DNA from: an uncultured Prochlorococcus sp.
GTDB lineage: Bacteria > Cyanobacteriota > Cyanobacteriia > PCC-6307 > Cyanobiaceae
DNA length: 64,000 nt
Reading direction: 5' to 3'
Assembly: GCF_902626525.1 (NCBI RefSeq)
Contig: NZ_CACOFR010000006.1
Span: 1-64,000, forward strand
Under the pieces are notes generated by a model. It was not told the origin of the DNA. It searched no databases and worked only from the letters and a program-made list of their open reading frames with translations. Every line of letters begins with the position of its first letter. The first letter of the stretch is position 1. This document shows positions 5,090-35,036 of this stretch, piece after piece. A program made the position numbers and the translations under genes.

Positions 5090-8000
5090 CTAAGAAACTA
5101 ATGATTTCAAATTAACTTTGAATGATTTATCTTCTAATGATTTACATGCTCCTTGTATATCACTAATACAAAATTGTTCCCCAAATTTAACGTAGGTAAC
5201 ATTATTTTTATTTCTTACTGCGGCTAAAACTGGAATCTTGATTCCACATTTATCTTTATCTGGTTTAAACTTAATTAAACAGTTTCTTAAAGTATTTTGT
5301 ACTCTTACGTCTGATGCTTGTGAACTTTCAAGATTAATAATAAGTAATTTAAGGTTATCTATTTCTCTACAATCATCAATTATTAATTGGGTCCTATCAC
5401 TTTTTTTATCTATTGTTCCCCATATCAATAATCTAGTATCAGTCAAAAGAAATTCTGATAATCTGACATAGGTTTTAGGAAAAACTATTGCTTCGCAAGT
5501 GCCAGAAAGGTCTTCAAGTTGAACTATAGCCATTCTATCTCCTTTTCTTGTTGTGATCTGCTTTAATTCAGGGATCATACCAACTAATGACACTTTGGTT
5601 CTATCTTTTGATTCATCTAACAGCGAAATACTAATTGGAGAAACAAGTTTTGCAGGTTTGGTTAAATGTTTTAGAGGATGATCAGATAAATAAAATCCTA
5701 AAAGCTGCTTCTCTAACCTTAACTTCTCAATAAGTGAATAATCATCAACTTTAGCTAATTGTGAATCTGTAAAAGTAACATTAGAAAATTCTTCTTGAGA
5801 ATCAAATAGATTTCCTTGGCCGGATAATCTATCACGATTTCTTGAAGAGGCCCATTCAATGACGTGTTCAAGATCAGATAATAACTGAGCTCTATTATTA
5901 TTATTTGAAAACTCATCAAGTGCTCCACAATGAATTAGAGATTCAAGACTTCTTTTATTAAGAACATTAGAAGGCAAACGATCGCACAAATCTGTAAGTG
6001 ACTTAAAGATTCCAAAACTATTACGATTTTCAATTATATTTCTTATGGCAGAATCGCCTAAGTTTTTTATTGCAGAAAGACCGAATAAAATCTGATTATT
6101 CTTAATGGTGAAATCAACCCCAGAGAAATTAATGCTTGGTGAAATAACTTCTATTCCCATGGAATAACAATTAGAAATATATCTTTGCATCTTATCGCTA
6201 GAACTGGAATTTACACTTAAAAGGGCTGCCATATATGCAACAGGAAAATGGGCTTTTAAAAATGCGGTTTGATATGTCACGGCGCCATAAGCAGTTGAGT
6301 GGCTTTTGTTAAAACAATATTCTGCGAACAAAACCATTTGATCAAAAAGATCGTTTGCTAATTTTTCATTAACACCTTTCTTCATAGAACCCTCGACAAA
6401 AATACTCCTATGTTTTACCATCTCTGATACTTTCTTTTTTCCCATCGCTCTTCGAAGTAAATCAGCATCACCAAGAGAATAACCAGCTAAGTCTTGAGCA
6501 ATTTTCATAATTTGTTCTTGGTAAACCATAATTCCATAGGTTTCGGTAAGAATTGATTTGATGAAAGGATGAGGAAAATCTACCTTTTCATTACCATTTT
6601 TTCGATTTATAAATTTAGGTATAAGACCAGCATCAAGAGGTCCAGGTCGATAAAGGGCAAGTATAGATGAAATATCCTCAAGAGAATTAGGTTTAAATTC
6701 CTTTACGACCTGTTTCATACCAGAAGATTCAAGTTGAAAAATGCCTTCAAGATCTCCTCTTCCAATAAGATCAAACGTTTTACAATCATTTTGTGGTAAT
6801 TCATCAATATTTATAATCTTTCCTGTGGATTCATTAATCAGAGAAACTGTCTTTTCAATCATTGTAAGATTCTTCAGACCTAAGAAATCCATTTTCAATA
6901 ATCCGAGTGATTCAATATCATCCATGGAATATTGGGTTATTATTTGTCCTTCATTATTCCTTTGAAGGGGTACAAGTTCATCTAGAGGATCTGAGGCAAT
7001 AACAACTCCTGCAGCATGAACACCATATGTTTTATTAGTTCCTTCAATTCTTAAAGCTAAATCAATCCATTTTTTTACCTTATTGTCATTAATATATTTT
7101 TCTCTAAATTCTTGGCTTGGTGAATTCTTATCAATCATTTCATTAAGTTTATAAGGTTTCCCTCTTACAACTGGTATTAACTTAGCCAATTTATCGGCTT
7201 CTCCATAAGGAATATCTAGAACCCTTGCAATATCTTTTAAAACGGCCTTAGAGGTCATTTTATTGAAAGTAATTATTTGTGCAACTTTATCCTCTCCATA
7301 TCGATTAGTAACATAATCAATCACTTCATTTCTCCTATCAATACAAAAGTCGGTATCAATATCTGGCATAGACTTCCTTGCAGGATTTAAAAATCGCTCA
7401 AACAATAATCCATGCTCAACAGGATCTATATTTGTAATTTGAAGAGCATAGGCCACTAGTGAGCCTGCAGCAGAACCTCTACCTGGACCTACTGGAATAG
7501 AGTTATCCCTAGCAAATTTGATATAGTCCCAAACAACTAAAAAATAATCGGGAAAACCCATATCTTTTATAATTTTTAATTCCGAAGATAGTCTTTTTTT
7601 ATAACTCTCATCAACTTCTGCAAGATTACTTTTTTTAAGTCTTTTTAAAAGACCTTCGTTAGATAATTGTGTTAGTAGAGAAAATGAGTCTTTTTCCTCA
7701 TTAAGAGAGAATTTTGGCATTCTATATTTACCAAACAAATCAAATACTTCAATTTTGTCTGCAATTTCTACGGTATTGTTCACTGCCTGTTTAATTGATT
7801 CATCATCAATATGATCTTTAAAAAGTTCAAGCATTTCATTTTCACTTTTAATATATTCTGTACCGGTATATCTCAACCGTTTTTCATCGCTTATTAGTTT
7901 CCCTGTTAATACGCAAAGTAAAGCATCATGTGCCTCAACATCCATATTGGATATGTAGTGAGCATCGTTTGTCGCAATAACTTTTATTTTATGCTTCTTC

Positions 8001-8587
8001 CCAATTTTTAATAATTCGACATTAACAATTCTATCTTCAATAGAGCCGTGATCTTGGATTTCTAGATAAAAATCATCTCCAAATAATTTTTTATACCAAA
8101 GAGCTACGTCCTCTGCCACATCTAATCTTCCTTTCAAAATGGCTTGAGGGATCTCACCACCAAGGCAAGCAGTAGAAACTATTAAACCATCTTTATATTT
8201 ATTTAAAAGAAATTTATCAATACATGGTCTAGAGAAAATACCTCGACCTCTCATACCATTTAAGTGACTAAGTGTTGTTAACTTAACAAGATTTTTATAG
8301 CCAGTATGATTTTTTGCTAACACAACCAAATGATATCTTTTTTCTTTTTTAGGTTGAGGATCATCAATAGAACCATTTATTACATACATTTCATTACCAA
8401 TAATTGGTTTTATACCTTTCTCTTTACAACTTTTGACTAAATCAAGAACTCCATACATAACTCCATGATCTGTCAGAGCAATAGAATCCATTCCAAGATC
8501 ACAAGCTCTATCAACAATTTTAGAAATCTGACTGGCTCCATCAAGAAGACTGTAGTCACTATGATTATGAAGCGGAACGAAACCCAT
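5090..8587 (-). CDS. dnaE: DNA polymerase III alpha subunit
   Basis: Replicative polymerase, 1165 residues and uninterrupted. It starts with a PHP domain (HNHSDYSLLDGAS at the N-terminus), followed by the C-family palm with PGRGSAAGSLV and the catalytic aspartates in PDIDTDFCIDRR, the helix-hairpin-helix region around LGDSAIRNI, and a C-terminal OB fold (KVSLVGMIPELKQI). Many cyanobacteria encode DnaE as two halves joined by a split intein; here the gene is continuous with no intein. It lies downstream of gatA on the same strand with an 84-bp gap. Confidence 0.98.
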   Translation of the reverse strand: MGFVPLHNHSDYSLLDGASQISKIVDRACDLGMDSIALTDHGVMYGVLDLVKSCKEKGIKPIIGNEMYVINGSIDDPQPKKEKRYHLVVLAKNHTGYKNLVKLTTLSHLNGMRGRGIFSRPCIDKFLLNKYKDGLIVSTACLGGEIPQAILKGRLDVAEDVALWYKKLFGDDFYLEIQDHGSIEDRIVNVELLKIGKKHKIKVIATNDAHYISNMDVEAHDALLCVLTGKLISDEKRLRYTGTEYIKSENEMLELFKDHIDDESIKQAVNNTVEIADKIEVFDLFGKYRMPKFSLNEEKDSFSLLTQLSNEGLLKRLKKSNLAEVDESYKKRLSSELKIIKDMGFPDYFLVVWDYIKFARDNSIPVGPGRGSAAGSLVAYALQITNIDPVEHGLLFERFLNPARKSMPDIDTDFCIDRRNEVIDYVTNRYGEDKVAQIITFNKMTSKAVLKDIARVLDIPYGEADKLAKLIPVVRGKPYKLNEMIDKNSPSQEFREKYINDNKVKKWIDLALRIEGTNKTYGVHAAGVVIASDPLDELVPLQRNNEGQIITQYSMDDIESLGLLKMDFLGLKNLTMIEKTVSLINESTGKIINIDELPQNDCKTFDLIGRGDLEGIFQLESSGMKQVVKEFKPNSLEDISSILALYRPGPLDAGLIPKFINRKNGNEKVDFPHPFIKSILTETYGIMVYQEQIMKIAQDLAGYSLGDADLLRRAMGKKKVSEMVKHRSIFVEGSMKKGVNEKLANDLFDQMVLFAEYCFNKSHSTAYGAVTYQTAFLKAHFPVAYMAALLSVNSSSSDKMQRYISNCYSMGIEVISPSINFSGVDFTIKNNQILFGLSAIKNLGDSAIRNIIENRNSFGIFKSLTDLCDRLPSNVLNKRSLESLIHCGALDEFSNNNNRAQLLSDLEHVIEWASSRNRDRLSGQGNLFDSQEEFSNVTFTDSQLAKVDDYSLIEKLRLEKQLLGFYLSDHPLKHLTKPAKLVSPISISLLDESKDRTKVSLVGMIPELKQITTRKGDRMAIVQLEDLSGTCEAIVFPKTYVRLSEFLLTDTRLLIWGTIDKKSDRTQLIIDDCREIDNLKLLIINLESSQASDVRVQNTLRNCLIKFKPDKDKCGIKIPVLAAVRNKNNVTYVKFGEQFCISDIQGACKSLEDKSFKVNLKSLVS

Positions 8588-8671
8588 ACTGAATCAAATT
8601 ATATATATAAGATAGAGAAAATTTATAAAAGATCTATACTTTGTGATCACAAATTAATTATTACTACAAAT

Positions 8672-10120
8672 TTAAAATATAGGTCTTTTCTTAATTACCT
8701 GAGCATCAATTTCAAAAATATTTGCTGCATTCAATATTTTATGCTCTTCTAAAACATTGCCTATTAGTTGAAGTCCGATAGGTAATCCTTTACTATCAAA
8801 CCCACAAGGAATACTGATAGCAGGGAGACCTGCTAGATTAGCTGGAACAGTTAGGAGATCAGACAAATACATAGAAAGTGGATCATTGGCAAAATCGCCT
8901 TTTAAAAAAGCAGTAGTTGGACAAGTCGGAGTTAACAAAATATCTACTTTCTTAAACGCGTTATCAAAATCATTTCTTATTAATGTTCTAACTTTTTGTG
9001 CTTTTTTGTAATACGCATCACTGTATCCAGCTGATAAAGCATAAGTTCCTATCAAAATTCTTCTTTGAACTTCATCTCCAAATCCCTCAGCTCTACTCTT
9101 TGATGTCATATCTAAAAGATTAGAACATTCATCAGTTCGGTAACCATATTTAACTCCATCGTATCTAGCTAAATTTGCAGATGCTTCAGATGGGGCAATT
9201 ACATAATATGTAGCAATACCGTCATTAAACCTAGGGCATTCAACATCAATGATCTTAGCTCCTAAAGTTTTGAATCTTTCAACTGCATAAAGAACAGATT
9301 CTTTAACTTCTGAATTAAGACCAGGATGTTCAAAGCATTCTTTAATCAATCCAATTTTTAAATTCTTTATAGATTTATTTAAATCATTTAAATAATTTGG
9401 AACTGGCTTATCAAGACAAGTTGAATCAAAAGGATCTTTACCAGATATTGAATAAAGGATTTCAGCAGCGTCTGAGACAGTATTTGTAATTGGACCAATT
9501 TGATCAAGAGAGCTAGCAAATGCTACTAATCCCCATCTACTTACTCTTCCATATGTTGGCTTAAGGCCAACAACTCCGCAAAAAGAAGCTGGTTGTCGTA
9601 TAGATCCTCCTGTATCAGAACCTATAGCAGCAAGACAAAATCCAGCAGCAACAGATGCTGCGCTACCTCCTGAACTTCCTCCAGGGACTCTTTTAATATC
9701 CCAAGGATTTGAAGTTGTACCAAATATGGAGGTTTCTGTTGAACTACCCATCGCAAATTCATCCAAATTTGTTTTACCTAGACATATAGCTCCTGAAGAC
9801 CATAATTTACTAGAAGCTGTAGATTCATAAGGTGCAACAAAATTTTTAAGCATTTTACTTGCACAAGTTGTAAAAACTCCCTTTGTGCAAATATTATCCT
9901 TTATTGCTATTGGTATTCCTGCGAGGGGAGGAAGAATTTCTTCATTTTGAATTAGATTATCAATATGTTCAGCTTGGAGTATCGCATTATCTTTTGTGGT
10001 ACATATATAAGAATTAATTACAGAATCTTTAGATTCGATCTTTAAAAAAATATCATTTATTAATTCCTTGACAGAAACATTTTTATTTTTAATTTCATTT
10101 CTTAAAGAACTAAAATTCAT
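8672..10120 (-). CDS. gatA: Glutamyl-tRNA(Gln) amidotransferase subunit A
   Basis: Glutaminase subunit of GatCAB, which converts misacylated Glu-tRNA(Gln) (and Asp-tRNA(Asn)) to the amide form; cyanobacteria generally lack GlnRS and depend on it. The 482-residue protein carries the amidase signature: catalytic Lys in [12 protein letters not shown], the glycine/serine loop [14 protein letters not shown], and the second serine in [16 protein letters not shown], giving the Ser-cisSer-Lys triad. gatB and gatC are not in this window. It lies 31 bp downstream of the DUF1816 gene on the same strand. Confidence 0.97.
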
Positions 10121-23211: not shown

Positions 23212-24438
23212 ATGGACTTTCAACAAGGGTTAATCACAACAATTCATGAATACGGAGTAACTAGTGATTTACTTAAAGAATTAAACAAAAGTCTCAAAAA
23301 AAGATCAACTAGTATTTTAATACCTTGTTTATATGAAGAATTTGAACGCCCAGCATTAAAAGATATAAGAGAGGTTTTAAAAAGTCTTACAGGATTAAAT
23401 GAATTAGTTATAGCTCTCTCTGCAAAAACTGTTGAGCAAGTTAAAGCAGCAAAATCATTTTTCAACTCAATGCCATTCCCAGTTCATATTCAATGGACTA
23501 ATTCACCATCTGTAATTGAGCTTTTAAAAAACCAGGAAAAGAATGGATTAGAACTTTTAGGTACTCCTGGTAAAGGATGGGCTGTATGGCAAGGTATAGG
23601 AGTTGCTACTAGGAAGTCGGATGTTGTTGCTCTTTTTGATGCTGATATAAGAACTTTTAGTCCTTTATATCCCTCAAGAATGATACTTCCACTTCTAGAT
23701 GAATCATTTGGGATATCTTATGTAAAAGCTTTTTATAGTAGATTATCTTTAGAAACGAATCAATTACAAGGAAGAGCAACAAGATTATTTGTGGGGCCTT
23801 TATTAGCAAGTCTTGAGCAGTTAGTTGGAAAGGGTCCTTTCTTACAATATCTACAATCATTTAGATATCCTTTGGCAGGTGAGTTTGCTTTTACTAAAGA
23901 CCTTGCTATGAATTTAAGAATACCTTGTGACTGGGGATTAGAAATAGGCTTATTATCAGAGGTTTATAGAAATGTAAGAACCTCCAAGATTGCCCAAGTT
24001 GACCTCGGTTTGTTTGACCATAAGCATAAAAATATTGGTAATTCTTCTAAAGAAGGATTGCAAAAAATGTGCACAGAAATACTCTCAAGTGTTTTAAGAG
24101 GACTTATGGAACATCAAGCTGAGACCTTAACCAGTACACAATTAGCAACTTTAGAAGTTCTTTACAAAAGAGTAGGTGAAGATCGTGTAAAACAATTTGG
24201 ACTAGATTCGGCAGTTAATCAACTTCCATACGATAGACACGAAGAAGAATTATCAGTACAAAAATTTGCAAAACTGTTGAGACCCGCTACAGAAGATTAT
24301 CTAGCTAACCCTACGACTAAGCAGCTACCAAGTTGGTCTAGAGTACTTTCTTGTGAGAACAAATTACAAGAGAATTTAGCTATTGCGGGGTCAAAAGACA
24401 TAAAGGCAAGTGAAAAAGAATTAATTAAAAACTTCTAA
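23212..24438 (+). CDS. gpgS: Glucosyl-3-phosphoglycerate synthase
   Basis: A GT81-type glycosyltransferase of 408 residues that transfers glucose from an NDP-sugar to 3-phosphoglycerate. Visible features: STSILIPCLYEEFERPAL start of the GT-A fold, LLGTPGKGWAVWQG, the metal-binding DxD in VVALFDADIRTF, and RYPLAGEFAFTKDL in the acceptor region. Product of the adjacent phosphatase is glucosylglycerate, a nitrogen-free compatible solute. Downstream, within about 100 bp, begins the decayed urtE sequence. Confidence 0.9.
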   Translation: MDFQQGLITTIHEYGVTSDLLKELNKSLKKRSTSILIPCLYEEFERPALKDIREVLKSLTGLNELVIALSAKTVEQVKAAKSFFNSMPFPVHIQWTNSPSVIELLKNQEKNGLELLGTPGKGWAVWQGIGVATRKSDVVALFDADIRTFSPLYPSRMILPLLDESFGISYVKAFYSRLSLETNQLQGRATRLFVGPLLASLEQLVGKGPFLQYLQSFRYPLAGEFAFTKDLAMNLRIPCDWGLEIGLLSEVYRNVRTSKIAQVDLGLFDHKHKNIGNSSKEGLQKMCTEILSSVLRGLMEHQAETLTSTQLATLEVLYKRVGEDRVKQFGLDSAVNQLPYDRHEEELSVQKFAKLLRPATEDYLANPTTKQLPSWSRVLSCENKLQENLAIAGSKDIKASEKELIKNF

Positions 24439-24529
24439 AGCAATAAATATCGCTTCCCCATTCGAACTACATCAATTAGTTCACAATAAAACAGTTCTCA
24501 ATCAGAGAAATTTATTCCCTAACCGTCAG

Positions 24530-24947
24530 TTGAAGAGAGACAATTATAGGAATGTTGTATTTGCAAGATTGATAATCTAAGAATAGGAAAATAAATCCAT
24601 TTATTTAAGACTTTTTCCCAATCCTATAAGATTTTTATATAAGGAAAGGGTAGATCTTAAGGGAGGTAAAAAATAACATGCTATTGCAAGAGCATTATTG
24701 GGCAAACCTAAATTATTATTGAATAACTAGGCTTCGGAAGGTATTAAGGTAAATTTATTTTAGATTTGATTATGCAATCAATCAAATAATATAAGATACA
24801 GGAATTAGCGTTTTATTAGTTTAAAAACACTTGCATTTTGTAAGTCAAGCAGATAGAAAGTATGCCACGCAATGCAAAGTTATTATTGAAAGTTGAAATA
24901 CCAGTGTGTCAAATCAAGCAGTTATTGATAAATTCTTAAGTGTTTAA
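24530..24947 (+). pseudogene. urtE: Decayed urea ABC transporter ATPase (urtE relic)
   Basis: No open frame survives, but two frames read through stops match the C-terminal half of UrtE/LivF-type ATPases. From about 24611: LFPNPIRFLYKERVDLKGG then K-stop-HAIARALLGKPKLLL (degenerate signature and Walker B), then ASEGIKVN in place of PTEGIQPN. After a frameshift: GISVLLV-stop-KHLHFVSQAD, and finally NQAVIDKFLSV followed by TAA at 24945-24947. The order and spacing equal those of an intact protein. Upstream similarity fades near 24530; the Walker A part is gone. Left boundary is approximate. Confidence 0.85.
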
Positions 24948-24980
24948 ATAGATTATTATTTATAGTAAAAAGAAAATTTA

Positions 24981-25157
24981 TCAATTTTCGCATCTTATAA
25001 GGTCAATACTGTTTGGATGTTCATTAATATATTTATTAAATTCCATTGCTAGTGTTCTAGCCTCATAAGCATCACAAGCATAAAAGCAATTTTCTGATCT
25101 TATATTTTGAAAATTACGATAATGAACAGTATATGGCTTTAAATTATTTTTAATCAT
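24981..25157 (-). CDS. Small hypothetical protein, 58 residues
   Basis: ATG ORF ending TGA: MIKNNLKPYTVHYRNFQNI followed by NCFYACDAYEARTLAMEF and a C-terminal HPNSIDLIRCEN. It has three cysteines and no hydrophobic helix, so it should be a soluble cytoplasmic protein. The amino-acid pattern (aromatic-rich beta strand then an Ala/Glu helix) looks like a compact folded domain; small proteins of this style recur in marine picocyanobacteria, from memory. It lies just beyond the urtE relic on the opposite strand. Confidence 0.62.
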   Translation of the reverse strand: MIKNNLKPYTVHYRNFQNIRSENCFYACDAYEARTLAMEFNKYINEHPNSIDLIRCEN

Positions 25158-25410
25158 TTTTTTTACTAAAGAGCAATTAGTTTATATATTTAAAATGAAT
25201 ATTTTTTTTAGTTAAAAGAATAACTTTTGTTGTTATCAAAATATATTGCCTTTAATTATGTATATAGGGAAACTTTATTTATCTGAGAAATTATTAAATT
25301 CATTTCTTTTTTTGTAATATTGTTTTTTACCTTCTATTAAAAAAACAAATTTGGACAAAATGTAGCCAAAAAAGGGAACCCAAAACTTTTCATAGATAAA
25401 TTTCATGAAA

Positions 25411-25662
25411 TTATGCAGCTAAAGAGTCGTTATCTAAATTTTCATTTGTTTTTATAATCTTTAAATCAATTGAATTAAATAAATGTTGAAAAAGTAAAAA
25501 ATCAAGTTCACCTTTTAATAAATCAACATCTGATGCAAGCAGATCATCAACAAAATCATCAAAAGTTTTTAAAGGAGGATTCACAATGAAAAATTTATTT
25601 CTGTTATTATCAACCCAACAACCGTGAAAGTCAACAAAATATACAAATGAAAATAATTTCAT
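25411..25662 (-). CDS. Small hypothetical protein, 83 residues
   Basis: Starts ATG with MKLFSFVYFVDFHGCWVDNN and continues through KTFDDFVDDLLASDVDLLKG, an acidic amphipathic stretch, ending NDSLAA. No signal peptide, membrane helix or motif is recognised. The frame is clean and the composition protein-like. It lies alone in the gene-poor 24.4-28 kb stretch, with about 250 bp upstream of its stop and 520 bp beyond its start lacking other genes. Confidence 0.55.
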   Translation of the reverse strand: MKLFSFVYFVDFHGCWVDNNRNKFFIVNPPLKTFDDFVDDLLASDVDLLKGELDFLLFQHLFNSIDLKIIKTNENLDNDSLAA

Positions 25663-26184
25663 ATAAAAGATTTAATTTTAATAATTATTTTTATTCAGCT
25701 CAAAGTAGCCATTTTTTGTTTAACAAATACTTATAAAACCAAAGAACTAATGAATATTCTAATCATATTCCATTTCATTTTTTTGTGAAACATAATAGTC
25801 AAAAAGTACCTGCAATAAAAAAAGGGAAATCGTATCAGAAATTCCTTATGGGAGTTTTTCTGAAGGAACCCCATGAGCAATATCCCATAAAATTTGTATA
25901 TCCTGAGAGAAAAAAGAAATCCAATATTTAAAGTTCTAATAAAAATACTTTTTTTTAACTACAGAATTAATTTTAGGGGTATTGAATATCTTTTCTAGTC
26001 TTTTAAAAGAACTAATAATTAAATGTAATTCCACTTAATAGAACTTAAAAGATAATATTCAATTTATAAAAAATATTGAATATATAGTTTACAAATTACT
26101 TAAATTATACTTAAAAACCTTTTTTCCTAACTAAAGATATACAAAAGAAGAACAATAATTAGAATAAAAAAAATTATAAAATCT
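25663..26184. other. Gene-poor interval with inverted repeats, 522 bp
   Basis: No ORF of useful length on either strand. It holds a cluster of short inverted repeats at 25836-25890, a perfect 12-bp palindrome TCTTTTAAAAGA at 25999-26010, and a 9-bp inverted repeat ATATTCAAT/ATTGAATAT at 26055-26063 and 26075-26083. The last lies about 100 bp ahead of the 98-residue gene and could be a promoter-proximal operator or hairpin. Otherwise A+T-rich and unremarkable. Confidence 0.5.
25836..25890. repeat. Competing inverted repeats, possible structured RNA
   Basis: CAGAAA (25836-25841) pairs with TTTCTG (25857-25862); TTCC pairs with GGAA just after it; and TTATGGGA (25846-25853) can pair either with CCCAT at 25870-25874 or perfectly over 8 bp with TCCCATAA (25883-25890). 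The G+C content is locally higher than the surrounding DNA. This could be a small RNA or attenuator with two folds, but no promoter or start is identified and the region may simply be a relic. Confidence 0.35.
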
Positions 26185-26481
26185 ATGACTGTTCATCAAG
26201 ATTACGAAATTAGAATCAATTTAAATGAATTGATTGAGAAGAGAATTCCATGCTGTGATTTGCTTCATCCAGATCATTGTTTAACCGAAAAACAAGTATC
26301 TGAAATCGCACATGACATTCGTATGGATTTAAATTTGCATGATCTTTATAAACAAGTTGATCAACACATCATGAACTATGTAAATGCAGCTGGTATTGAT
26401 AACAAAGATCATTGGGTTGAACCTCATCTTCCAGATCTGGAGAGAGATTTAAAAGAAGAGGTGGGGATAGAGTTTGATTAA
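26185..26481 (+). CDS. Hypothetical soluble protein, 98 residues
   Basis: ATG ORF reading MTVHQDYEIRINLNELIEKR, with a Cys pair in RIPCCDLLHPDHC, a basic/acidic helix EIAHDIRMDLNLHDLY, and an acidic end ERDLKEEVGIEFD. The CC-x5-H-x2-HC pattern of cysteines and histidines could bind a metal, but I recognise no family. Sits alone between small orphan ORFs; composition is normal for the genome. Confidence 0.65.
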   Translation: MTVHQDYEIRINLNELIEKRIPCCDLLHPDHCLTEKQVSEIAHDIRMDLNLHDLYKQVDQHIMNYVNAAGIDNKDHWVEPHLPDLERDLKEEVGIEFD

Positions 26482-26505
26482 TATTTTGTCATTTTTAATA
26501 AATTA

Positions 26506-26658
26506 TCAATAAATGTATTTTTTTTCTAAATCATCTATTAATTTATAAATACTTTTTGCTGATCTTTTTCTTTTCTTTGAAATTGAAAAAAATATAAATC
26601 CAATAAATACTAAAAAAACAGGAGTGAAAAATATGATTTCAAAATTCATGGACATCAT
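26506..26658 (-). CDS. Small membrane protein, 50 residues
   Basis: Three candidate ATG starts occur within nine bases of each other: MMSMNFEIIFFTPVFLVFIG. One hydrophobic helix is followed by a strongly basic stretch SKKRKRSAKS and a charged helix ending DDLEKKYIY. By the positive-inside rule the basic tail is cytoplasmic. No family recognised. It converges on the 98-residue gene with 24 bp between stops. Confidence 0.5.
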   Translation of the reverse strand: MMSMNFEIIFFTPVFLVFIGFIFFSISKKRKRSAKSIYKLIDDLEKKYIY

Positions 26659-26823
26659 TTAAAAATAATATATTATTTAAATTATTAAAAAGTTTCCATC
26701 AATTAAATAGGTACTTTATACAAAATATCTATGAAGATAAATAATTAAGTTTTTTTATCAGAATAATAAAAAGTAAGAAATTTTTTATAGATTAAAATAT
26801 ATAGAATTAATTAAAATAAGTAT

Positions 26824-27006
26824 ATGATTAATTACTTTGCTTTAACAATAAATGAAATGGGAATAGGTAAAATGGAATTAGCTGTTATTGGAACTGTAAT
26901 TCTGATATTTCCAATATTATTTTTTCTTGCATCAAAAAACCTTGATGCGAAAGGTGTTTTTAATTGGATGATGGAGAAACCTGAAGATTGGATAGGAAGA
27001 AAATAA
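26824..27006 (+). CDS. Small membrane protein, 60 residues
   Basis: ATG ORF with one clear membrane helix (residues about 18-37: ELAVIGTVILIFPILFFLA) and a polar C-terminal tail containing WMMEKPEDWIGRK. Start may instead be the second ATG (MGIGKME) 11 codons in. The tail with paired Trp and a Gly-Arg-Lys end looks conserved, but I do not recognise it. Convergent with the secreted 113-residue protein gene, 24 bp apart. Confidence 0.58.
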   Translation: MINYFALTINEMGIGKMELAVIGTVILIFPILFFLASKNLDAKGVFNWMMEKPEDWIGRK

Positions 27007-27030
27007 TATTTTCACAATTTCCACACTTAT

Positions 27031-27372
27031 CTACTCAAATTCTAATTTTTCTAAACTTTTAACAGGAAAATCATATTCCTGGCAATCATTTTCTAAACTA
27101 TTAACTATTGAATTTTTTAGGAATTTATAATCTATTAACTTATTGAGTTTATTATTTTTAAATTCTTTATTTGTTTCACCAATTGCAAATGCTAAAGCTC
27201 CCTCATAAGAAATACCAAATTTAGTTGCATTACAATATGTTCTAGAAAATTTATTAGAAATCCTCATAGTATATTTTTCAATTGTTCGAGAAGAAATTTC
27301 TAATGAATAAACTGGGTTAATAAATATAAGAAAAATAGTTAAAAATAAAAATGTAAAAAATCTCTTTATCAT
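27031..27372 (-). CDS. Secreted hypothetical protein, 113 residues
   Basis: A signal peptide is evident (KRFFTFLFLTIFLIFINPVYS, cleavage likely after VYS), so the product should be exported to the periplasm or lumen. The mature protein begins LEISSRTIEKYTMRISNKFS and includes two cysteines, one in RTYCNATKFGISYEGAL and one in LENDCQEYDF, that could form a disulfide. No known domain is recognised. The pattern, with FGIS-x-EGALAFAIGE, is likely shared with other picocyanobacterial orphans. Confidence 0.65.
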   Translation of the reverse strand: MIKRFFTFLFLTIFLIFINPVYSLEISSRTIEKYTMRISNKFSRTYCNATKFGISYEGALAFAIGETNKEFKNNKLNKLIDYKFLKNSIVNSLENDCQEYDFPVKSLEKLEFE

Positions 27373-27737
27373 GATATTTCATAATTTGAAGATTAAATAT
27401 AATTAATGATTAAACAAAGCTGAATAAATCTTATTAAAAATTATAAAAATTAAATAATAAAAATAATTTTTAAAAAGAATTTCATATTTTTGGATTCTAT
27501 TAAATCGATGAATGAGTATCTTTAACTTTTATTATTAAGGTTATTAAAAAAGGACATAATAAACTTTGGAATAATTAAAGGATTAATATCTAAAAATGTT
27601 AAAAATTAAACTCTTATTAGAAATTCAACAAATTATTATAAAAAATCAGTAAATTATTTATTAAAAAAAATGCTTTAGCTATGGAAATGTATTTGTAATT
27701 GAATTAATCTTTAAGTATGAATTAAACACAACAAAAT
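27373..27737. other. Gene-poor interval, 365 bp
   Basis: Extremely A+T-rich spacer between divergently oriented small genes. Only poly-A/T runs and stop-rich frames are seen; no ORF above about 25 codons, tRNA or convincing hairpin. It should contain the promoters of the secreted protein (left) and of the 62-residue gene (right), but no hexamer pair stands out against the A+T background. Confidence 0.5.
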
Positions 27738-27926
27738 ATGGCATTACCAGAATTAATATATGCACCTAATGATGGAGGAACTATACATAGATATGAAATT
27801 AGTGGTGGTAAGAGAAAATTTTTAAGATTTATAGGCTGTTATCTTGGACAATGCAATTTCTACAAAAACATTGATGAAGCTATAGATTACATAAAAAATT
27901 CGAAAGAATTACAAAAGTTACAATAA
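27738..27926 (+). CDS. Small hypothetical protein, 62 residues
   Basis: ATG ORF: MALPELIYAPNDGGTIHRYE, then a basic segment GGKRKFLRFIGCYLGQCNFY with a C-x5-C pair, and a C-terminal helix NIDEAIDYIKNSKEL. Soluble and probably compact. No family recognised. It precedes the Rieske oxygenase gene by 165 bp on the same strand but the gap is too large to assume an operon. Confidence 0.6.
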   Translation: MALPELIYAPNDGGTIHRYEISGGKRKFLRFIGCYLGQCNFYKNIDEAIDYIKNSKELQKLQ

Positions 27927-28091
27927 TTATGAAATAAAGATACACAAAAATCTCCAGAACAATTTGTTTTTTTAGGTAAGACATAAATATTGCTACAAAT
28001 AATAGCGAATTTTATTTTTATGAGAAATTGATTATTCACTTGAGTTATAGTTCCGAAAGATAACTAGTCAATTAAAAAAAGAAATTAATTT

Positions 28092-29414
28092 ATGGAAAAC
28101 AGACAAATTAATTTTTTTAAAACTAAAGACTTTAATACTGTTCTTAAACCTTTTAAGAAGGGAACAGTAGTAAAAATTGATAAGTTTGATATTAGAGATA
28201 ATCAAAAAGAATTAAATATAGGTTTATTTGGTTGGTACGCGATTTGTCCTTCAAAAGAACTTAAAAAAAATAAGCTACATTATTTTTCACTCTATGATGA
28301 GCCTTTAATTCTTTACAGAGATGAAAATAACAATATTAGGTGTATTAAAAATATTTGTCCGCATAGAGGGGCTTCCTTTTTTGGAGGTACATTATCAAAT
28401 GGCGTAATAACTTGCCCATATCACGGAGCTAAATTCTCATCAGGAGGAAGCTGCCAAAATTTAGATCGAATAACATGTAGTCATATAGTTGATAATAATT
28501 ACGATAATTACGCCAAAAGAATACACTTATCTCAATACAAAGCTATAGAAAAAGATAATTATATTTTTGTGCATTTTTCTAAAAAATCTGATACCGATTT
28601 AAATAATTTAAATGAAGATACACCTCTAAGTAACTATGAATTATCTGATAATGGTTTTGTGCCTGAAGATTATGTTTCTGAAGAGGTATTAGTTGACTTT
28701 AAATGTGATTGGTCAAGGATAATTGAAAATCACTTGGACATCCTTCACATTTTTTGGGTACATGGAGATACCATTCCTGATAAAGATGTAAATAAAAACG
28801 TACTTGTTAGTTTTAATCAGAAATTTAATATAACTCCCAAGTACATTGAAAGTATTTATTACTATAAGAATGACCCAAGAAAAGAATTTATCAGAATAAA
28901 GTATTTACCTCCCGGAAGAATATTAATTTATAAAGGAGATCCCTCTGTATCAAGATATTTACAGGTTCTTGATCATATTCCATTGGGAAATAATAAAGCG
29001 AGAGTAATAGTAAGGCACTATAGGAAATTTTTGAAGAATAAAATAATTAATGATCTAATACTATTTAAGGAAACTCAAAGAAAAATTTTTTATAAGATAT
29101 TTGATGAGGATTATATGATTTTAAAGACTCAAACCTATAACCACAATATGGGATTGATCACTAAAGATGAAATAAAATTATTGGGAGAAGATAGAATAAT
29201 AAATTACTTTTGGAAATGGTATAAGAAATCTGAAGAGAAAGATAACCCTTGGAAAAATATAAATAAGACTGAAAATCTAACAGTCTATGATGAAGTAATT
29301 TTGAAATATCCCCCCGAAATAAAAAAGTTAGAATTTATAAATAATATAGACATAATAAGAAAAACATTGTTAAGGTTTGCGGCTCCACTATTATTTTTTA
29401 TGTTATTGATATGA
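28092..29414 (+). CDS. Rieske non-heme iron oxygenase, CAO/PaO-like
   Basis: A 440-residue membrane-associated oxygenase. The Rieske [2Fe-2S] ligands are C89-x-H91 and C108-x2-H111, giving C-x-H-x16-C-x2-H. The mononuclear iron site reads ENHLDILHIFWVH, that is E212-x3-D216-x2-H219-x4-H224. Both spacings match those I recall for chlorophyllide a oxygenase, the chlorophyll b-forming enzyme. A C-terminal hydrophobic helix (LLRFAAPLLFFMLLI) should anchor it to membranes. Family members also include pheophorbide a oxygenase and TIC55, so the substrate is inference. It is followed after 3 bp by a tiny membrane ORF and then an ABC ATPase. Confidence 0.85.
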   Translation: MENRQINFFKTKDFNTVLKPFKKGTVVKIDKFDIRDNQKELNIGLFGWYAICPSKELKKNKLHYFSLYDEPLILYRDENNNIRCIKNICPHRGASFFGGTLSNGVITCPYHGAKFSSGGSCQNLDRITCSHIVDNNYDNYAKRIHLSQYKAIEKDNYIFVHFSKKSDTDLNNLNEDTPLSNYELSDNGFVPEDYVSEEVLVDFKCDWSRIIENHLDILHIFWVHGDTIPDKDVNKNVLVSFNQKFNITPKYIESIYYYKNDPRKEFIRIKYLPPGRILIYKGDPSVSRYLQVLDHIPLGNNKARVIVRHYRKFLKNKIINDLILFKETQRKIFYKIFDEDYMILKTQTYNHNMGLITKDEIKLLGEDRIINYFWKWYKKSEEKDNPWKNINKTENLTVYDEVILKYPPEIKKLEFINNIDIIRKTLLRFAAPLLFFMLLI

Positions 29415-29417
29415 TTT

Positions 29418-29525
29418 ATGAATAAAGTAAATAGACCTTCATGGTTAAATTGGCTTTATCTTTTTATATTTATTTTAAGCTCTATCCAAATAATTGTATT
29501 TTGGAGCAATAAGTTTAGTGGTTAA
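29418..29525 (+). CDS. Putative 35-residue membrane peptide
   Basis: ATG ORF placed 3 bp after the Rieske gene stop and overlapping the GTG start of the ABC ATPase by 8 bp. Sequence MNKVNRPSWLNWLYLFIFIL continues SSIQIIVFWSNKFSG: a single hydrophobic helix with a basic N-terminus. The exact fit between its neighbours, with both junctions suitable for translational coupling, is the main reason to consider it real. No family recognised. Confidence 0.5.
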   Translation: MNKVNRPSWLNWLYLFIFILSSIQIIVFWSNKFSG

Positions 29526-30306
29526 TAAATATTGGTTTGAAGCAAAAAATATAAATTGTTTTAAAAATGGTTTTCGAGTAATTAAAAATTTAACTTTACA
29601 GATAGATTATTCAGAAAATGCTATATTAATTGGGCCTAATGGTTCAGGTAAATCATCATTAATAGAAATAATTAATAGAAACATATACCCCTTAGATACA
29701 AACGAATCGACACTTAAAATATTTAACAATGAAATTATAAATATATGGGAACTAAGAAAAAGAATAAGCACAGTCAATAATGATATCAAAAATAGAATCA
29801 ATCCAAACCTAAAAGTTTTTGATTTAATTTTAAGTGGACTGTATGGAAGATATTGTCATATATCAAATCAATCTAAAAGAGATCATGAAAAAGTTGAGAG
29901 TCTTATAGAGAAAATGAATATATCGAGTTTATCTGAAAGATATTTTTCATATTTATCAGATGGAGAAAAACAAATTTCACTTATTGCAAGAGCTTTAATT
30001 AAAAAACCCGAGATATTAATCTTAGATGAACCCACTACTAATTTAGACTATAAATCAAAATATTTTGTAATTGACAAGATTAATGAATTATCGAAATTAA
30101 ATACCAAAATTTTATGTGTGACACACGATATATCAATGATTTCGAAAATTTATGATCGAGTAATCATGTTGAAAAGCGGTAACATAATCGCTGATGGGAA
30201 TCAAAAAGAAGTTATGAATAGCTCAAATCTTAAAAAATTATATGATATTAATTTAGAAGTAATTGAAAACAAAGGATTTTGGGTTATCAGCAGGTTGTCT
30301 AAATAA
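29518..30306 (+). CDS. ABC transporter ATP-binding protein
   Basis: Soluble ATPase subunit, 262 residues from a GTG start (a TTG eight codons upstream is less family-like). Walker A GPNGSGKSS, signature YLSDGEKQISLIARAL (LSDGE variant), Walker B EILILDEPTTNLD and switch His in VTHDISM are all present, so it should hydrolyse ATP. No permease or binding protein is adjacent, so the substrate is unknown; the partner must be encoded elsewhere or be the small upstream membrane peptide. Convergent with, and overlapping by 8 bp, the zinc-ribbon gene. Confidence 0.9.
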   Translation: MVNKYWFEAKNINCFKNGFRVIKNLTLQIDYSENAILIGPNGSGKSSLIEIINRNIYPLDTNESTLKIFNNEIINIWELRKRISTVNNDIKNRINPNLKVFDLILSGLYGRYCHISNQSKRDHEKVESLIEKMNISSLSERYFSYLSDGEKQISLIARALIKKPEILILDEPTTNLDYKSKYFVIDKINELSKLNTKILCVTHDISMISKIYDRVIMLKSGNIIADGNQKEVMNSSNLKKLYDINLEVIENKGFWVISRLSK

Positions 30307-30493
30307 TAATGATAATAAAAATAGTTACACCAATAACAAGAAAAATTATTTCTTTTCTATTAAAAATTGATGAAGATTTTTTAGTAAATGAAGCAGATCC
30401 ACATCTAGAACATACTATCTTACCTCCTAAAGATCGATCTGAAACAAATGCAGAACTTCCACAATTAAGACAGACTTTATTTGCGCTCATCAC
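30299..30493 (-). CDS. Zinc-ribbon plus one-helix membrane protein
   Basis: A 64-residue protein: CLNCG (residue 8 on) and CSRCG (residue 28 on) form a two-knuckle zinc ribbon, followed by a short linker KKSSSIFNRKE and one C-terminal helix of nearly pure Ile/Val/Phe. The ordered Cys pattern shows that this strand, rather than the overlapping plus-strand ORF, is coding. It would sit tail-anchored with the zinc domain in the cytoplasm. Function unknown. Confidence 0.72.
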   Translation of the reverse strand: MMSANKVCLNCGSSAFVSDRSLGGKIVCSRCGSASFTKKSSSIFNRKEIIFLVIGVTIFIIIII

Positions 30494-30614
30494 TAATTAA
30501 TAATTTTAAGATTTCCTTACAAATTATATTCTTTAAATCTTATGTAAAGAAAAAATTCAAAAATATTATGTTAATGAGAATCTGTTGCAATAAGTAGTTT
30601 TATAGTGCATAATT

Positions 30615-30633
30615 GATAATAATTCTCATTATC
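30615..30633. promoter_or_regulatory. Fur box upstream of Crp-family regulator
   Basis: The 19-mer GATAATAATTCTCATTATC matches the classic Fur consensus GATAATGATAATCATTATC at 16 of 19 positions and is a near palindrome. It ends 12 bp before the ATG of the regulator at 30646, where bound Fur would block transcription. A partial copy, AATGAGAAT, is found at 30573-30581, the reverse complement of 30622-30630. Predicts repression when iron is plentiful. Confidence 0.75.
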
Positions 30634-30645
30634 AAATTTAAATTA

Positions 30646-31233
30646 ATGAATTTCCATGCTTATGGAGAATCTCCGTCCAAATCAGTAAGAATAATAACTG
30701 GTCAATCCGTTTTAATAGATCCCTCATCAAGACCAAAGGGGACTTGCTTGGAAGTTGAAAGTGGTATTGCAAGAGTCTATTGTCCTTGCGAAGAAACAGA
30801 AGGCATGACACTTGCTTTTTTACAATCAGGTGATCAATTAAGAACTGACCTATTATGTAGTGAGGGTGTTTGCGTTGAAGCATTAACAGATTTATCTTTT
30901 CATAGCAATGTAAATATTGATGAGAATGTAGGTTTCGATGCTGTAAATGAATGGACTTTGCAACTTCTCAGAATTAGACACTTGGGGAATGCAGAACAAA
31001 GATTACAAGCTTTATTTTCAATCCTAGTAAACCGTTTAGGGAGAAGATGTGGCCAATGGTGTGAATTACCGTTTAGGTTAACTCATGAAAGGATAGGTGA
31101 ATTAATAGGTTCAACACGCGTAACCTCTACAAGATTAATTTCTAAATTAAGATCATCTGAGTTATTAATAGCTCCAATTGGAACCCAGACGGTGAGTGTT
31201 GCTCCATCTTTTATTGAAACATCTCCACTTTAG
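30646..31233 (+). CDS. Crp/Fnr-family transcription regulator
   Basis: A 195-residue regulator with an N-terminal cyclic-nucleotide-like beta-roll (LIDPSSRPKGTCLEVESGIARVY, LAFLQSGDQLRTDLL), a dimerisation helix (NEWTLQLLRIRHLGNAEQRL), and a C-terminal winged helix with recognition region LTHERIGELIGSTRVTSTRL. Effector unknown; cysteines in the beta-roll (VYCPCEE, LLCSEGVC) could sense redox or metal. The ATG chosen lies after the Fur box; an upstream in-frame TTG would put the Fur box inside the coding sequence. Neighbouring ferritin and iron-transporter genes suggest a role in iron response. Confidence 0.9.
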   Translation: MNFHAYGESPSKSVRIITGQSVLIDPSSRPKGTCLEVESGIARVYCPCEETEGMTLAFLQSGDQLRTDLLCSEGVCVEALTDLSFHSNVNIDENVGFDAVNEWTLQLLRIRHLGNAEQRLQALFSILVNRLGRRCGQWCELPFRLTHERIGELIGSTRVTSTRLISKLRSSELLIAPIGTQTVSVAPSFIETSPL

Positions 31234-31237
31234 AAAC

Positions 31238-31528
31238 ATGAAAGAATCATATTCAATAACTAACAACCTGTTAATTGAAGTTGATGTATTAACTAATAGG
31301 CTTAAAAATATAAAACAATCTTATAAAACTATTTATTACAAGGGGTTGAAAGAAAGGTTATTTTCTGAAAATAAAGATATTTTTAATAGAATTAATGAGA
31401 TATATAAAATAGCTAAGCACTTAAAAAAAACAAATTATAAAGAATTTAATTTTTCAAATCTACTCGTTGAAAAAACCGAAAGGGCATTAAAACAAAATAA
31501 GTTTGAAAGTAATTTATTTTTTCTTTAA
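31238..31528 (+). CDS. Hypothetical helical protein, 96 residues
   Basis: ATG 4 bp after the Crp regulator stop, so probably in the same transcript. The sequence (MKESYSITNNLLIEVDVLTN, KTIYYKGLKERLFSENKDIF, ending ALKQNKFESNLFFL) is Lys/Asn/Leu-rich and predicted by eye to be mostly alpha-helical, without membrane segment or motif. Its last 15 bp overlap the stop end of the convergent ferritin gene. Function unknown, but shared promoter suggests Fur-controlled expression. Confidence 0.6.
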   Translation: MKESYSITNNLLIEVDVLTNRLKNIKQSYKTIYYKGLKERLFSENKDIFNRINEIYKIAKHLKKTNYKEFNFSNLLVEKTERALKQNKFESNLFFL

Positions 31529-32068
31529 ATCACTGTCTATTAGTAAAATTGCAGAAGGTTGATTAGACGCAAACTTAACTTTACCTAGAATGTTTGCGAA
31601 TTCATCCTCTGATTTTATTTGGGACTCTACAATTGGGTCTAAAAACACATTAGTTCTTGTATCTGAAATTCTCTCAGACATTGAATAGAGTTGTTGCAGA
31701 GATGAAGTTAAATCAGCCTCCATTTTGAAAGAATAAGAGATCAAATCCTCAATTGAATCCCATGTTTGAACTGGTGCAGGAAGTTCATTTAATTTTACGC
31801 TTTGTCCTCTTGCAATTAAGTAATCTGCAAATTTTTGGGCATGTTCCATTTCATCTTTTGATTCATTGAGAAAATGAGAGGAAAATCCATTTAAATCTCT
31901 CTCCTGAAACCAAAGGTATATAGAAAAATATTGTACGTTGGCATATCTTTCCATTGTTAGATGTTCAAAAAAATTATCCAATAAGCTTTCCTCCATCGGT
32001 TGGGCAACAGCTCTTCCAGATGGACCAAAATTAATTAGTTTCTTTGTTTGTAAATTATTTTCATTCAT
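31514..32068 (-). CDS. Ferritin
   Basis: Four-helix-bundle iron storage protein, 184 residues. Ferroxidase-type residues are visible: the helix A glutamate in FFEHLTMERYANVQY, and the helix B E-x-x-H in ESKDEMEHAQKF (E73, H76), with a further Glu in SEDEFANIL. An N-terminal extension of about 25 residues precedes helix A. It lies beside the Fur-boxed Crp regulator and iron ABC ATPase. No Fur box is obvious in its own upstream region. Confidence 0.9.
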   Translation of the reverse strand: MNENNLQTKKLINFGPSGRAVAQPMEESLLDNFFEHLTMERYANVQYFSIYLWFQERDLNGFSSHFLNESKDEMEHAQKFADYLIARGQSVKLNELPAPVQTWDSIEDLISYSFKMEADLTSSLQQLYSMSERISDTRTNVFLDPIVESQIKSEDEFANILGKVKFASNQPSAILLIDSDLKKK

Positions 32069-32187
32069 GATTACGGTATAAAGCTTCCTAAATAATACAA
32101 CATTTTGTATAAATTAGCACTTTATTAATGTTTTATTTAACATAACCCAATATATAATCAATACCAATATCAATAGCAATCTCTTAA

Positions 32188-32310
32188 ATGAATCTAGTAT
32201 TTGGTTTTACAGAACTGCTATTAACTAATAAAATATATTTAAATAAAAAAAAGAAATGTAAAAAGAAAAAATGCTCCAAATGGAAAGGGGGTAAATGCAA
32301 CTGTTTATAA
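32188..32310 (+). CDS. Putative 40-residue Lys/Cys-rich protein
   Basis: ATG ORF ending TAA: an N-terminal MNLVFGFTELLLTNKIYLN followed by KKKKCKKKKCSKWKGGKCNC. Four cysteines in 15 residues set in a lysine-rich tail suggest a metal-binding or nucleic-acid-binding peptide. It lies between ferritin and the iron transporter ATPase, ending 7 bp before the latter's stop on the opposite strand. Evidence is only the ORF, its unusual composition and its iron-gene setting; chance in A-rich DNA is possible for the lysines but less so for the regular cysteines. Confidence 0.42.
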   Translation: MNLVFGFTELLLTNKIYLNKKKKCKKKKCSKWKGGKCNCL

Positions 32311-32317
32311 AAAAATC

Positions 32318-33376
32318 TTAAATATAAACCTTTTGAGCTCCAGGATATAAAAAACAATAACTATCTTTGTTAATAGAAAGAGAACATTTTTCACCATTAT
32401 TTAGTTGGTTATCAATATTAGTTCTAACCCTTAATATTTCATCGTTTATAGATACTTTATACATAAGAAATTCACCAAGAAATTCTTTAGATAATACGAT
32501 GGCTTTACCAGAGTTAGATCTTTTAATAGAAATAGATTTAGGAGCAATTGAAATGCTTTTAATATTTGTATTATTTGATAACTTTGGACTATTAATTTCA
32601 CCTAAACAAGACATATATGAATTACCGTTTTTGTGAAGATTAAGAATATTATTTCCCAAAATAAAACTACTAACAAATATCGTCTTGGGATTATTTAGAA
32701 GATTAATTGGGGTATCAATTTGATGTATTTCACCTTCAAACATAACTGCAACTTTATCGCAAATTGACATAGCTTCTTCAGGATCATGAGTAACCATTAA
32801 TCCACTAGCATTACAACCCCTAAGAATATTTGGAAGTTCGCTTCTCAATTTGAGTTTGACGTGCATATCAAGACTACAAAAGGGTTCATCTAATAGAATA
32901 AAATTTGTACCTGGAGCAAGAGCCCTTGCAATAGCTAGTCTTTGTTTTTGACCTCCAGACAATTCGTGTGGGTACCTTCCAACAAAACTATCAAGACCTA
33001 CAACATTTAATAAATAATCAGCTCTAGATCTATTATTTTTGTTTTTCAAGCCAAACATTACATTTTCAAAAACAGTTAAGTGAGGAAAAAGTGCATAATC
33101 TTGAAAAACCATTCCAATATTTCTCTTCTCAGGACTAAGAATTCTATAACTACTTGAAATTTCCTTAGAATTTAAGAAAATCTTTCCTTTAGAAGGGTAT
33201 TCGAAACCTGCGATCAATCTCAAAAGTGTGGTCTTTCCGCACCCAGAAGGACCTAGTAAACCTAGTAATTCACCACTTTCAATTTTTAGGTTAATTTCTT
33301 TTAATATCCAATTCGAATATTCTTGCTTATCATATTTATGATGCAGATCATCAATTATTAATGCATCATTATTCAC
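32318..33376 (-). CDS. futC: Fe(III) ABC transporter ATP-binding protein
   Basis: A 352-residue importer ATPase of the CysA/FbpC group. Walker A GPSGCGKTTLLRLIAGFE, Q-loop MVFQDYALFPHLTVFENV, signature LSGGQKQRLAIARALA, Walker B FILLDEPFCSLD and a C-terminal TOBE-like regulatory region (about 245-352) are present. Substrate iron is inferred from subfamily style and from the adjacent ferritin and Fur-boxed regulator; the permease (FutB) and binding protein (FutA/IdiA) are not in the window. It is divergent from nth with a 16-bp palindrome in the shared 95-bp spacer. Confidence 0.8.
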   Translation of the reverse strand: MNNDALIIDDLHHKYDKQEYSNWILKEINLKIESGELLGLLGPSGCGKTTLLRLIAGFEYPSKGKIFLNSKEISSSYRILSPEKRNIGMVFQDYALFPHLTVFENVMFGLKNKNNRSRADYLLNVVGLDSFVGRYPHELSGGQKQRLAIARALAPGTNFILLDEPFCSLDMHVKLKLRSELPNILRGCNASGLMVTHDPEEAMSICDKVAVMFEGEIHQIDTPINLLNNPKTIFVSSFILGNNILNLHKNGNSYMSCLGEINSPKLSNNTNIKSISIAPKSISIKRSNSGKAIVLSKEFLGEFLMYKVSINDEILRVRTNIDNQLNNGEKCSLSINKDSYCFLYPGAQKVYI

Positions 33377-33435
33377 AAAGTTTTTTTTATTTAAGAATTT
33401 TAAATTAGCAGAAAAAATTCACCTAAAACATCTCT

Positions 33436-33451
33436 CGTATAAATTTATACG
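33436..33451. promoter_or_regulatory. 16-bp palindrome of the GTA-N8-TAC type
   Basis: CGTATAAATTTATACG is a perfect palindrome between divergent futC and nth. Its ends fit GTA-N8-TAC, the core that NtcA, the cyanobacterial nitrogen regulator, recognises. The centre is about 28 bp upstream of the nth ATG and about 67 bp upstream of the futC start. A perfect 16-mer including outer C/G pairs is uncommon even in A+T-rich DNA, so an operator is plausible; the factor is not known. Confidence 0.5.
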
Positions 33452-33471
33452 CAAATTATCGATCAAAATCA

Positions 33472-34125
33472 ATGAGGAAAGCTGAAAGAGCAAAAATAAT
33501 ACTTAGGGAACTTAAAAAGCTATATCCATCGCCTCCAATTCCTCTCGATCATACAAATGCCTATACACTTCTTGTCGCGGTAGTTTTAAGTGCTCAATCT
33601 ACTGATAAAAAAGTCAATGAATTAACAAAGAGTCTTTTTAAGATTGCAGATAATCCAGAAAAGATGATAAAGCTTGGTATTAGCGGCATATATGAATACA
33701 TAAAATATTTAGGTCTATCTAATCAAAAATCAAAAAACATTTATAACCTATCAAAAATCTTAATAGAAAAGTATCAAAACAAAGTTCCAGATACTTTTGA
33801 AGAACTTGAATCTCTCCCAGGAGTAGGTCATAAAACAGCATCAGTTGTGATGTCCCAAGTTTTTAAAATCCCATCTTTCCCTGTTGATACGCATATACAC
33901 AGGCTTTCACAAAGATGGGGGTTATCTAATGGAAAAAGCGTGGTTCAAACAGAAAAAGATCTTAAAAAAATATTTCCTGTTAATGATTGGAATACATTAC
34001 ATTTGCAAATAATCTTTTATGGCAGAGAATACTGTACTGCAAAAGGCTGTGATGGAACAAAATGCTATTTATGTCGTACTCTTTATCCAAAAAGAAAAAA
34101 GAAATTTATATGTAAAAAACCCTAA
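33472..34125 (+). CDS. nth: Endonuclease III (DNA glycosylase/AP lyase)
   Basis: Removes oxidised pyrimidines from DNA. The helix-hairpin-helix motif ESLPGVGHKTASVV carries the catalytic Lys (K121) and FPVDTHIHRLSQRWG carries the catalytic Asp (D139). The C-terminal iron-sulfur loop reads C188-x4-C193-x4-C198-x2-C201, unlike the canonical C-x6-C-x2-C-x5-C spacing; the fourth canonical Cys is missing and a Cys within the loop and one at 214 are extra. The cluster may be rearranged. Length 217 is normal. Confidence 0.93.
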   Translation: MRKAERAKIILRELKKLYPSPPIPLDHTNAYTLLVAVVLSAQSTDKKVNELTKSLFKIADNPEKMIKLGISGIYEYIKYLGLSNQKSKNIYNLSKILIEKYQNKVPDTFEELESLPGVGHKTASVVMSQVFKIPSFPVDTHIHRLSQRWGLSNGKSVVQTEKDLKKIFPVNDWNTLHLQIIFYGREYCTAKGCDGTKCYLCRTLYPKRKKKFICKKP

Positions 34126-34161
34126 GAAATTTATATAATTGTATAATTACTTTTTTTAATC

Positions 34162-34821
34162 ATGAAAATAGCAATTACTGGTGCCTCAGGGAAAACAGGT
34201 TTTAGAATCTCTGAAGAGGCCGTAAAGGAAGGATATAAAGTAAGGCAAATCATAAGAAAGGACTCAAAAGTTTCTGAAGGACTAGAGAATTTAGAAACAA
34301 TAAGAGTTTCATTAGACAAAAAAGAAGAACTTGATAAAGCTTTAAAAGATATTGATGCTTTGGTAATTGCCACTGGTGCGAGAGCATCTTTAGATTTAAC
34401 TGGTCCCGCAAAGGTTGATGCACTAGGTGTTTACAGGCAACTAGAGAGTTGCAAAAGAGTTGGTGTTAAGAGAATTATTTTAGTTAGTTCTCTTTGTACT
34501 GGTAAATTGTTTCACCCATTAAATTTGTTCGGTTTAATCCTGATTTGGAAGAAAATAGGCGAAAACTTTTTACGAAATTCAAATTTTGAGTGGACAATTA
34601 TAAGACCAGGTGGATTAAAGGAAAATGAAGAAATTAAATCGGAAAATATAAATTATTCAAAGGAGGATACTCAAATTAATGGATCAATCCCAAGAAGATT
34701 AGTAGCCCAATGCTGTATAGATTCTCTAAAAAACAAAGAATCCATAAATAAATTAATAGAAATAACAAGCTCAAATGATAATAAAAAGATATCTTTTAAA
34801 AAAGCTATGCAAATGATTTAA
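34162..34821 (+). CDS. NAD(P)-binding SDR-like protein (NmrA/SDR5 type)
   Basis: A 219-residue Rossmann-fold protein: dinucleotide loop ITGASGKTGFRISEEA, acidic/basic residue region KEGYKVRQIIRK, ALVIATGARASLDL at the end of strand 4, and ILVSSLCTG where a catalytic Ser/Tyr would be expected. Atypical short-chain dehydrogenases of this group bind NADP and are often regulators or photosystem assembly helpers in cyanobacteria. The catalytic Tyr-x3-Lys is not evident, so redox activity is uncertain. Confidence 0.82.
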   Translation: MKIAITGASGKTGFRISEEAVKEGYKVRQIIRKDSKVSEGLENLETIRVSLDKKEELDKALKDIDALVIATGARASLDLTGPAKVDALGVYRQLESCKRVGVKRIILVSSLCTGKLFHPLNLFGLILIWKKIGENFLRNSNFEWTIIRPGGLKENEEIKSENINYSKEDTQINGSIPRRLVAQCCIDSLKNKESINKLIEITSSNDNKKISFKKAMQMI

Positions 34822-34847
34822 AAGATGTAAACATATAAAATAAAACT

Positions 34848-35036
34848 ATGAAAATAAATCCAAAAATTGACGCATTACAATTAATGCTTACCGATCTAAG
34901 AACAAGAAATGAACCTATAAGACATAAAGCTGCATTTAAAGGTTGTCAACCAGAATTTCAAAGTCTTGTATCAAGGCTAATAAAGCAGTTAGAGGAAGAA
35001 TTAATTTCTGAAAAAATTGCAAATCGTGAAAGTTAA
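34848..35036 (+). CDS. Small hypothetical protein, 62 residues
   Basis: ATG ORF 26 bp after the SDR gene: MKINPKIDALQLMLTDLRTR, then RHKAAFKGCQPEFQSLVSRL and an acidic helix EELISEKIANRES. Two amphipathic helices and no membrane segment; the regular charge pattern suggests a small DNA- or protein-binding partner. No family recognised. Probably transcribed with the SDR gene. Confidence 0.62.
   Translation: MKINPKIDALQLMLTDLRTRNEPIRHKAAFKGCQPEFQSLVSRLIKQLEEELISEKIANRES

Follow-up and report, generated by a model that had tools for sequence, protein, structure and literature searches.

Results

A two-ended scar of the urea cluster behind gpgS

The window analyzed here, the first 64,000 nucleotides of contig NZ_CACOFR010000006.1 from an uncultured Prochlorococcus sp. 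(assembly GCF_902626525.1), almost certainly carries a two-ended deletion scar of the urea gene cluster, both stumps of which have subsequently drifted. This reading is drawn from two stumps whose place, order, and strand are those expected, from a drift pattern across codon positions, and from a right flank collinear with that of relatives.

The left border of the slot is an intact gpgS-type gene (glucosyl-3-phosphoglycerate synthase) at 23212..24438 on the plus strand, which matched NF040724 with an E value of 2.6e-121 and a score of 405 bits, below the cut-off of 700. A gpgS match was present in 83 of 101 genomes of the genus, including the one from which the window derives. The right flank at 24977..25660 kept the order seen downstream of intact urtE in relatives and was 83% identical to that of the relative G067 over 700 bp; farther right, window 26030-35014 was again collinear with G067, at 85% over 9,017 bp. 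The right border is marked by a small conserved ORF of 83 amino acids (25411..25662, minus strand), which was recognized by synteny as following urtE in relatives and had no NCBIfam match. At window 25660-25661, approximately 390 bp present in G067 (locus L039, 16505-16897) are missing, so that a further small deletion lies close to the scar. At 30613-31233 the window encodes a Crp/Fnr-type regulator weakly similar to PtrA and NtcA, under the cut-offs for both.

In G067, gpgS is followed by ureC-ureB-ureA-ureD on the opposite strand, and then by ureE-ureF-ureG-urtA-urtB-urtC-urtD-urtE; urtE and ureC were named by family and the remaining ure and urt genes by sequence and order. The distance from the gpgS stop to the urtE stop was 10,308-10,333 bp in seven relatives versus 509 bp in the window, such that both borders of the block are kept and the interior is gone. 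The gene ureC lay at most 30 bp from the gpgS end in 80 of 80 named loci, these being the best 80 of 304 by gpgS and thus a biased set, which included Prochlorococcus MIT 9302, MIT 9401, MIT 9314, many single-cell genomes, and two entries titled Synechococcaceae. Across the genus, ureC was present in 197 of 266 genomes; among the 87 genomes with a completeness of at least 90%, 79 had it.

Identity and decay of the two stumps

The urtE pseudogene occupies 24505..24947 on the plus strand and comprises approximately codons 88-236 and the stop, as determined by DNA and translated comparison with urtE of relatives. Window 24505-24960 was 79% identical to G067 urtE and the first bases behind that gene over 464 bp (E 9.6e-107). 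When intact G067 UrtE was searched against the region by tblastn, residues 88-236 of 236 aligned with 44% identity, reading through stops (E 2.7e-29). The UrtE profile TIGR03410 matched window 24590-24754 (E 3.7e-5) with two stops inside, and the score of 22.7 bits lies far below the curated cut-off of 285.8 bits, as befits a pseudogene and not a member of the family. Descent from urtE is indicated by the DNA identity together with the flank and slot held in common with the urtE of relatives. Codons 1 to approximately 87 are deleted, including the start of the gene with its Walker A motif, and no open reading frame with that motif is left.

Comparison with G067 urtE revealed 10 in-frame stops in the aligned codons, four 1-base deletions, and one 3-base deletion. 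Mismatches at the three codon positions numbered 37, 21, and 40 of 146, 148, and 150, respectively, compared to 8, 2, and 43 of 237 each for the intact urtE pair of G038 and G067. The distribution in the window is characteristic of drift and not of a functional gene. The first-pass annotation had described UrtE-like pieces in UrtE order at 24530-24947, whose in-frame stops and frameshift it took as signs of loss; the alignments bear out this description, and the end at 24947 stood, while the start was moved to about 24505.

Between gpgS and the urtE pseudogene lies a decayed ureC stump at about 24435..24509 on the minus strand, of which the part beyond the gpgS end runs from 24439 to about 24509 and which the first-pass annotation had not mentioned. 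It consists of the last 22-24 codons or so and the stop, and meets gpgS tail to tail, the arrangement found in intact relatives. Window 24401-24509, with the gpgS tail included, matched L039 5425-5533 at 76% (E 7.8e-18). The 65 nucleotides after gpgS scored above 2000 of 2000 shuffles for six of seven reference ureC ends; for the seventh, the distant G015, the score was reached by 14 of 2000 shuffles. When the ureC piece was compared without the adjoining end of gpgS, the E values were 0.002 versus G067 and 4.0e-6 versus G038, with no match listed versus G015, and a reversed-sequence control reached E 0.002. Descent from the 3' end of ureC is thus indicated less strongly when the gpgS tail is left out, and the case for it depends in part on where the piece lies and how it is oriented.

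The deletion junction was placed at 24505..24509, where the ureC and urtE blocks overlap by at most 5 bases: the left block ends at L039 5533, and the right block starts at window 24505, corresponding to L039 15329 and urtE codon 88. The exact breakpoint is blurred by later decay. An ancestor would have carried the whole gpgS - ureCBAD - ureEFG - urtABCDE block, and in the simplest account one deletion within it, about 9.8 kb long and perhaps guided by a microhomology of 5 bases at most, would have fused ureC to urtE and spared gpgS. Both stumps would afterwards have drifted without selection, gaining stops and small deletions. Several deletions that eroded a larger first remnant cannot be told apart from one such event. 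The suggestion made in the first-pass annotation, that a urea operon once lay beside gpgS and was deleted, agrees with the synteny of relatives, the shortened interval, and the two stumps, as does the outcome of a check that it had named, the position of the cluster directly behind gpgS in relatives. Its further proposal that the deletion had left one end did not hold, as ureC and urtE both survive.

Urea and other nitrogen genes in the genome

The genome containing the window (G000) comprises 1.53 Mb in 44 contigs and is 96.76% complete. No match to ureC was found in it at E 10, nor any full gene by the UreC family TIGR01792, and no urtE was found above the family cut-off. A search with the 10,318-bp cluster DNA, which was the sole search to cover the remaining nine to ten urea genes, gave the urtE stump as the only substantial match (446 bp, E 6.7e-99), besides which there were 26 matches no longer than 57 bp with a best E value of 4.9e-5. 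The intact urea genes whose presence the first-pass annotation had proposed checking were therefore not encountered in these searches. The best of the short matches, a 48-bp site on another contig (C19:7670-7717), was 83% like the start of urtB, and no urtB protein match there was better than E 0.16; it may be chance or a stray fragment.

The cluster might instead have been lost from the slot and be present in an unassembled part of the genome. There is precedent in G176 and G097, whose slots are both empty: G176 carries a full urea cluster on another contig (L237, G176:C1:146000-165999), and G097 carries urtA-E on a contig other than that of its slot. The G176 cluster is mosaic, having ure genes 80-99% identical to those of G067 and urt genes only 68-82% identical, and has been moved or regained. 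The absence of ureC and of substantial cluster DNA at this level of completeness makes such a second cluster very unlikely in the present genome, with a small chance left by an assembly that is 96.76% complete and in 44 contigs.

The case of G176 also shows that the cluster can move, and a lineage that never held it could in principle have received a stray urtE fragment behind gpgS. We consider this highly improbable and reject it because the ureC end is present too, facing the gpgS end where the ancestral cluster would have had it, with urtE adjoining its own downstream flank; an insertion would need to supply both ends in register. Derivation from another LivF-type ABC ATPase was rejected as scarcely credible on the tblastn and DNA comparisons, for although ABC ATPases resemble each other and 27 of the 29 listed UrtE-profile matches in the genome outscore the stump, the best E value among ABC ATPase frames from eight loci of the genome (a subset of its ABC ATPases, all eight with Walker A and SGG) and UrtD was 1.8e-4 over 24 residues versus 2.7e-29 for UrtE, no better DNA match to another gene was seen, and synteny and the ureC stump speak for urtE. 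The equally good LivF-type paralogue that the first-pass annotation had named as grounds for abandoning urtE was thus not approached by any of those tried.

With the deletion scar accepted as the origin of both stumps, and everything between them removed, the cell can, judging from its gene content, no longer be expected to import urea via UrtABCDE or to split it with urease. Drift, low iron, or an economy of nickel or nitrogen may have driven the loss. Neither cynS nor a PF00384 oxidoreductase was found in the genome; as we take narB to belong to PF00384, narB would be absent. The single NIR_SIR frame, of 603 amino acids, is more likely a sulfite reductase than nirA. For these reasons ammonium seems to be the nitrogen source left among those tested.

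Scars and empty slots in other genomes

Slots in other genomes were picked by eye from matches that are themselves a lower bound (20 regions and 30 genomes, of 266 genomes), and because they are a hand-picked subset more scars may exist. Among the slots examined, remnants were found in three besides the window. In G058, the gpgS stop is fused to a urtE remnant that begins near codon 54 and has one 1-base insertion and no in-frame stop. In G262, approximately the last 33 ureC codons are fused to a urtE remnant that begins near codon 165, with one in-frame stop. In G165, gpgS to about codon 398-402 is joined to approximately the last 15 urtE codons; around L099 2695-2770, the gpgS reading frame continues into what is left of urtE, such that the last gpgS residues are replaced. 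A junction common to the window and G058 was considered and rejected, as the window has a ureC stump. The G058 junction falls on a shared 13-base word, CTAAAGCAAAAAA, which G254 carries where its gpgS ends and which G166 and G109 carry within urtE; the word is incomplete at the gpgS end of G038.

Since these three genomes carry different scars in the same slot, repeated loss of the block in the genus is suggested. In a tree of rpoB and its flanks from 30 genomes, G058 grouped with G039 (support 98) and then with G002 (95), and G165 with G098 (79); G039, G002, and G098 retain ureC and urtE. G262 branched outside every other member of the HLII-like group (85), and the genome of the window fell just outside the rest, with a support of only 36. 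A tree of one gene region cannot prove the independence of the four losses, yet the four junctions differ.

Thirteen other empty slots had no detectable remnant (G022, G061, G077, G080, G088, G097, G113, G115, G157, G169, G176, G189, and G260). The best match among them was E 0.001 in G176, while a reversed-sequence control reached 2.9e-4 over the 17 slots tested, and for this reason no scar is claimed in the 13. A possible faint urtE tail seen in the alignment of G061 did not rise above noise (E 0.006). The 13 genomes are more distant, and their slots may never have held the cluster. G113 and G115 have an empty slot yet carry ureC in the genome. In G155, G167, and G264 the right border was not found within the examined locus, and the search for gpgS gave nothing in G138, G147, and G261.

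Two further arrangements were observed. In G097 (L044 and L045), the contig bearing urtA-E has no ure genes in the 5.2 kb examined. In G025, which is 97% complete, no urtE was found at the threshold used; at L047 (G025:C9) 6268-9121, urtA is intact and urtB is cut short at about 41 residues, next to an additional copy of the sucrose-phosphorylase-like gene that normally adjoins gpgS. The L047 arrangement represents a partial loss or an assembly error.

Discussion

That some high-light strains have lost the urea cluster is already published, and the window is a well-documented new case, ordinary in kind. The ure/urt segment common to other HL and LLI strains is absent from the high-light strain MIT9515 (PMC6102989), as it is from the genome of the window; the available portions of that paper report the absence and no scar, whereas the window shows both decayed ends. 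The urea region has been described as quasi-core; it is less well represented in low-iron waters, and two of six HLIII/IV genomes have it (PMC10119275). That work concerns the same gene block, missing in some lineages as here, and in the portions available covers presence or absence and field distribution without deletion junctions, whereas the window has a junction. For the patchy nitrate assimilation genes of Prochlorococcus, vertical descent, loss, and recombination have been proposed (PMC6370341), which is the same evolutionary mode for a flexible nitrogen pathway, but a pathway other than urea. In the available portions of PMC7170224 and PMC10504305 there was nothing bearing on urea-gene loss, and we recognized no account of these scar junctions in the accessible open-licence literature.

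The absence of the cluster from a draft genome is by itself weak evidence, and a two-ended scar is a stronger record: because both ends remain, the lineage had urea use and then lost the genes. We lean toward the view that the slot is a site of repeated deletion, where at least four lineages underwent separate deletions with different end points, and that stumps at different stages of decay could serve as a clock for the loss of urea use. If one slot holds scars of different age, losses become countable and can be ranked in time, and losses so timed would allow asking about links to low iron, low nickel, or ample ammonium.
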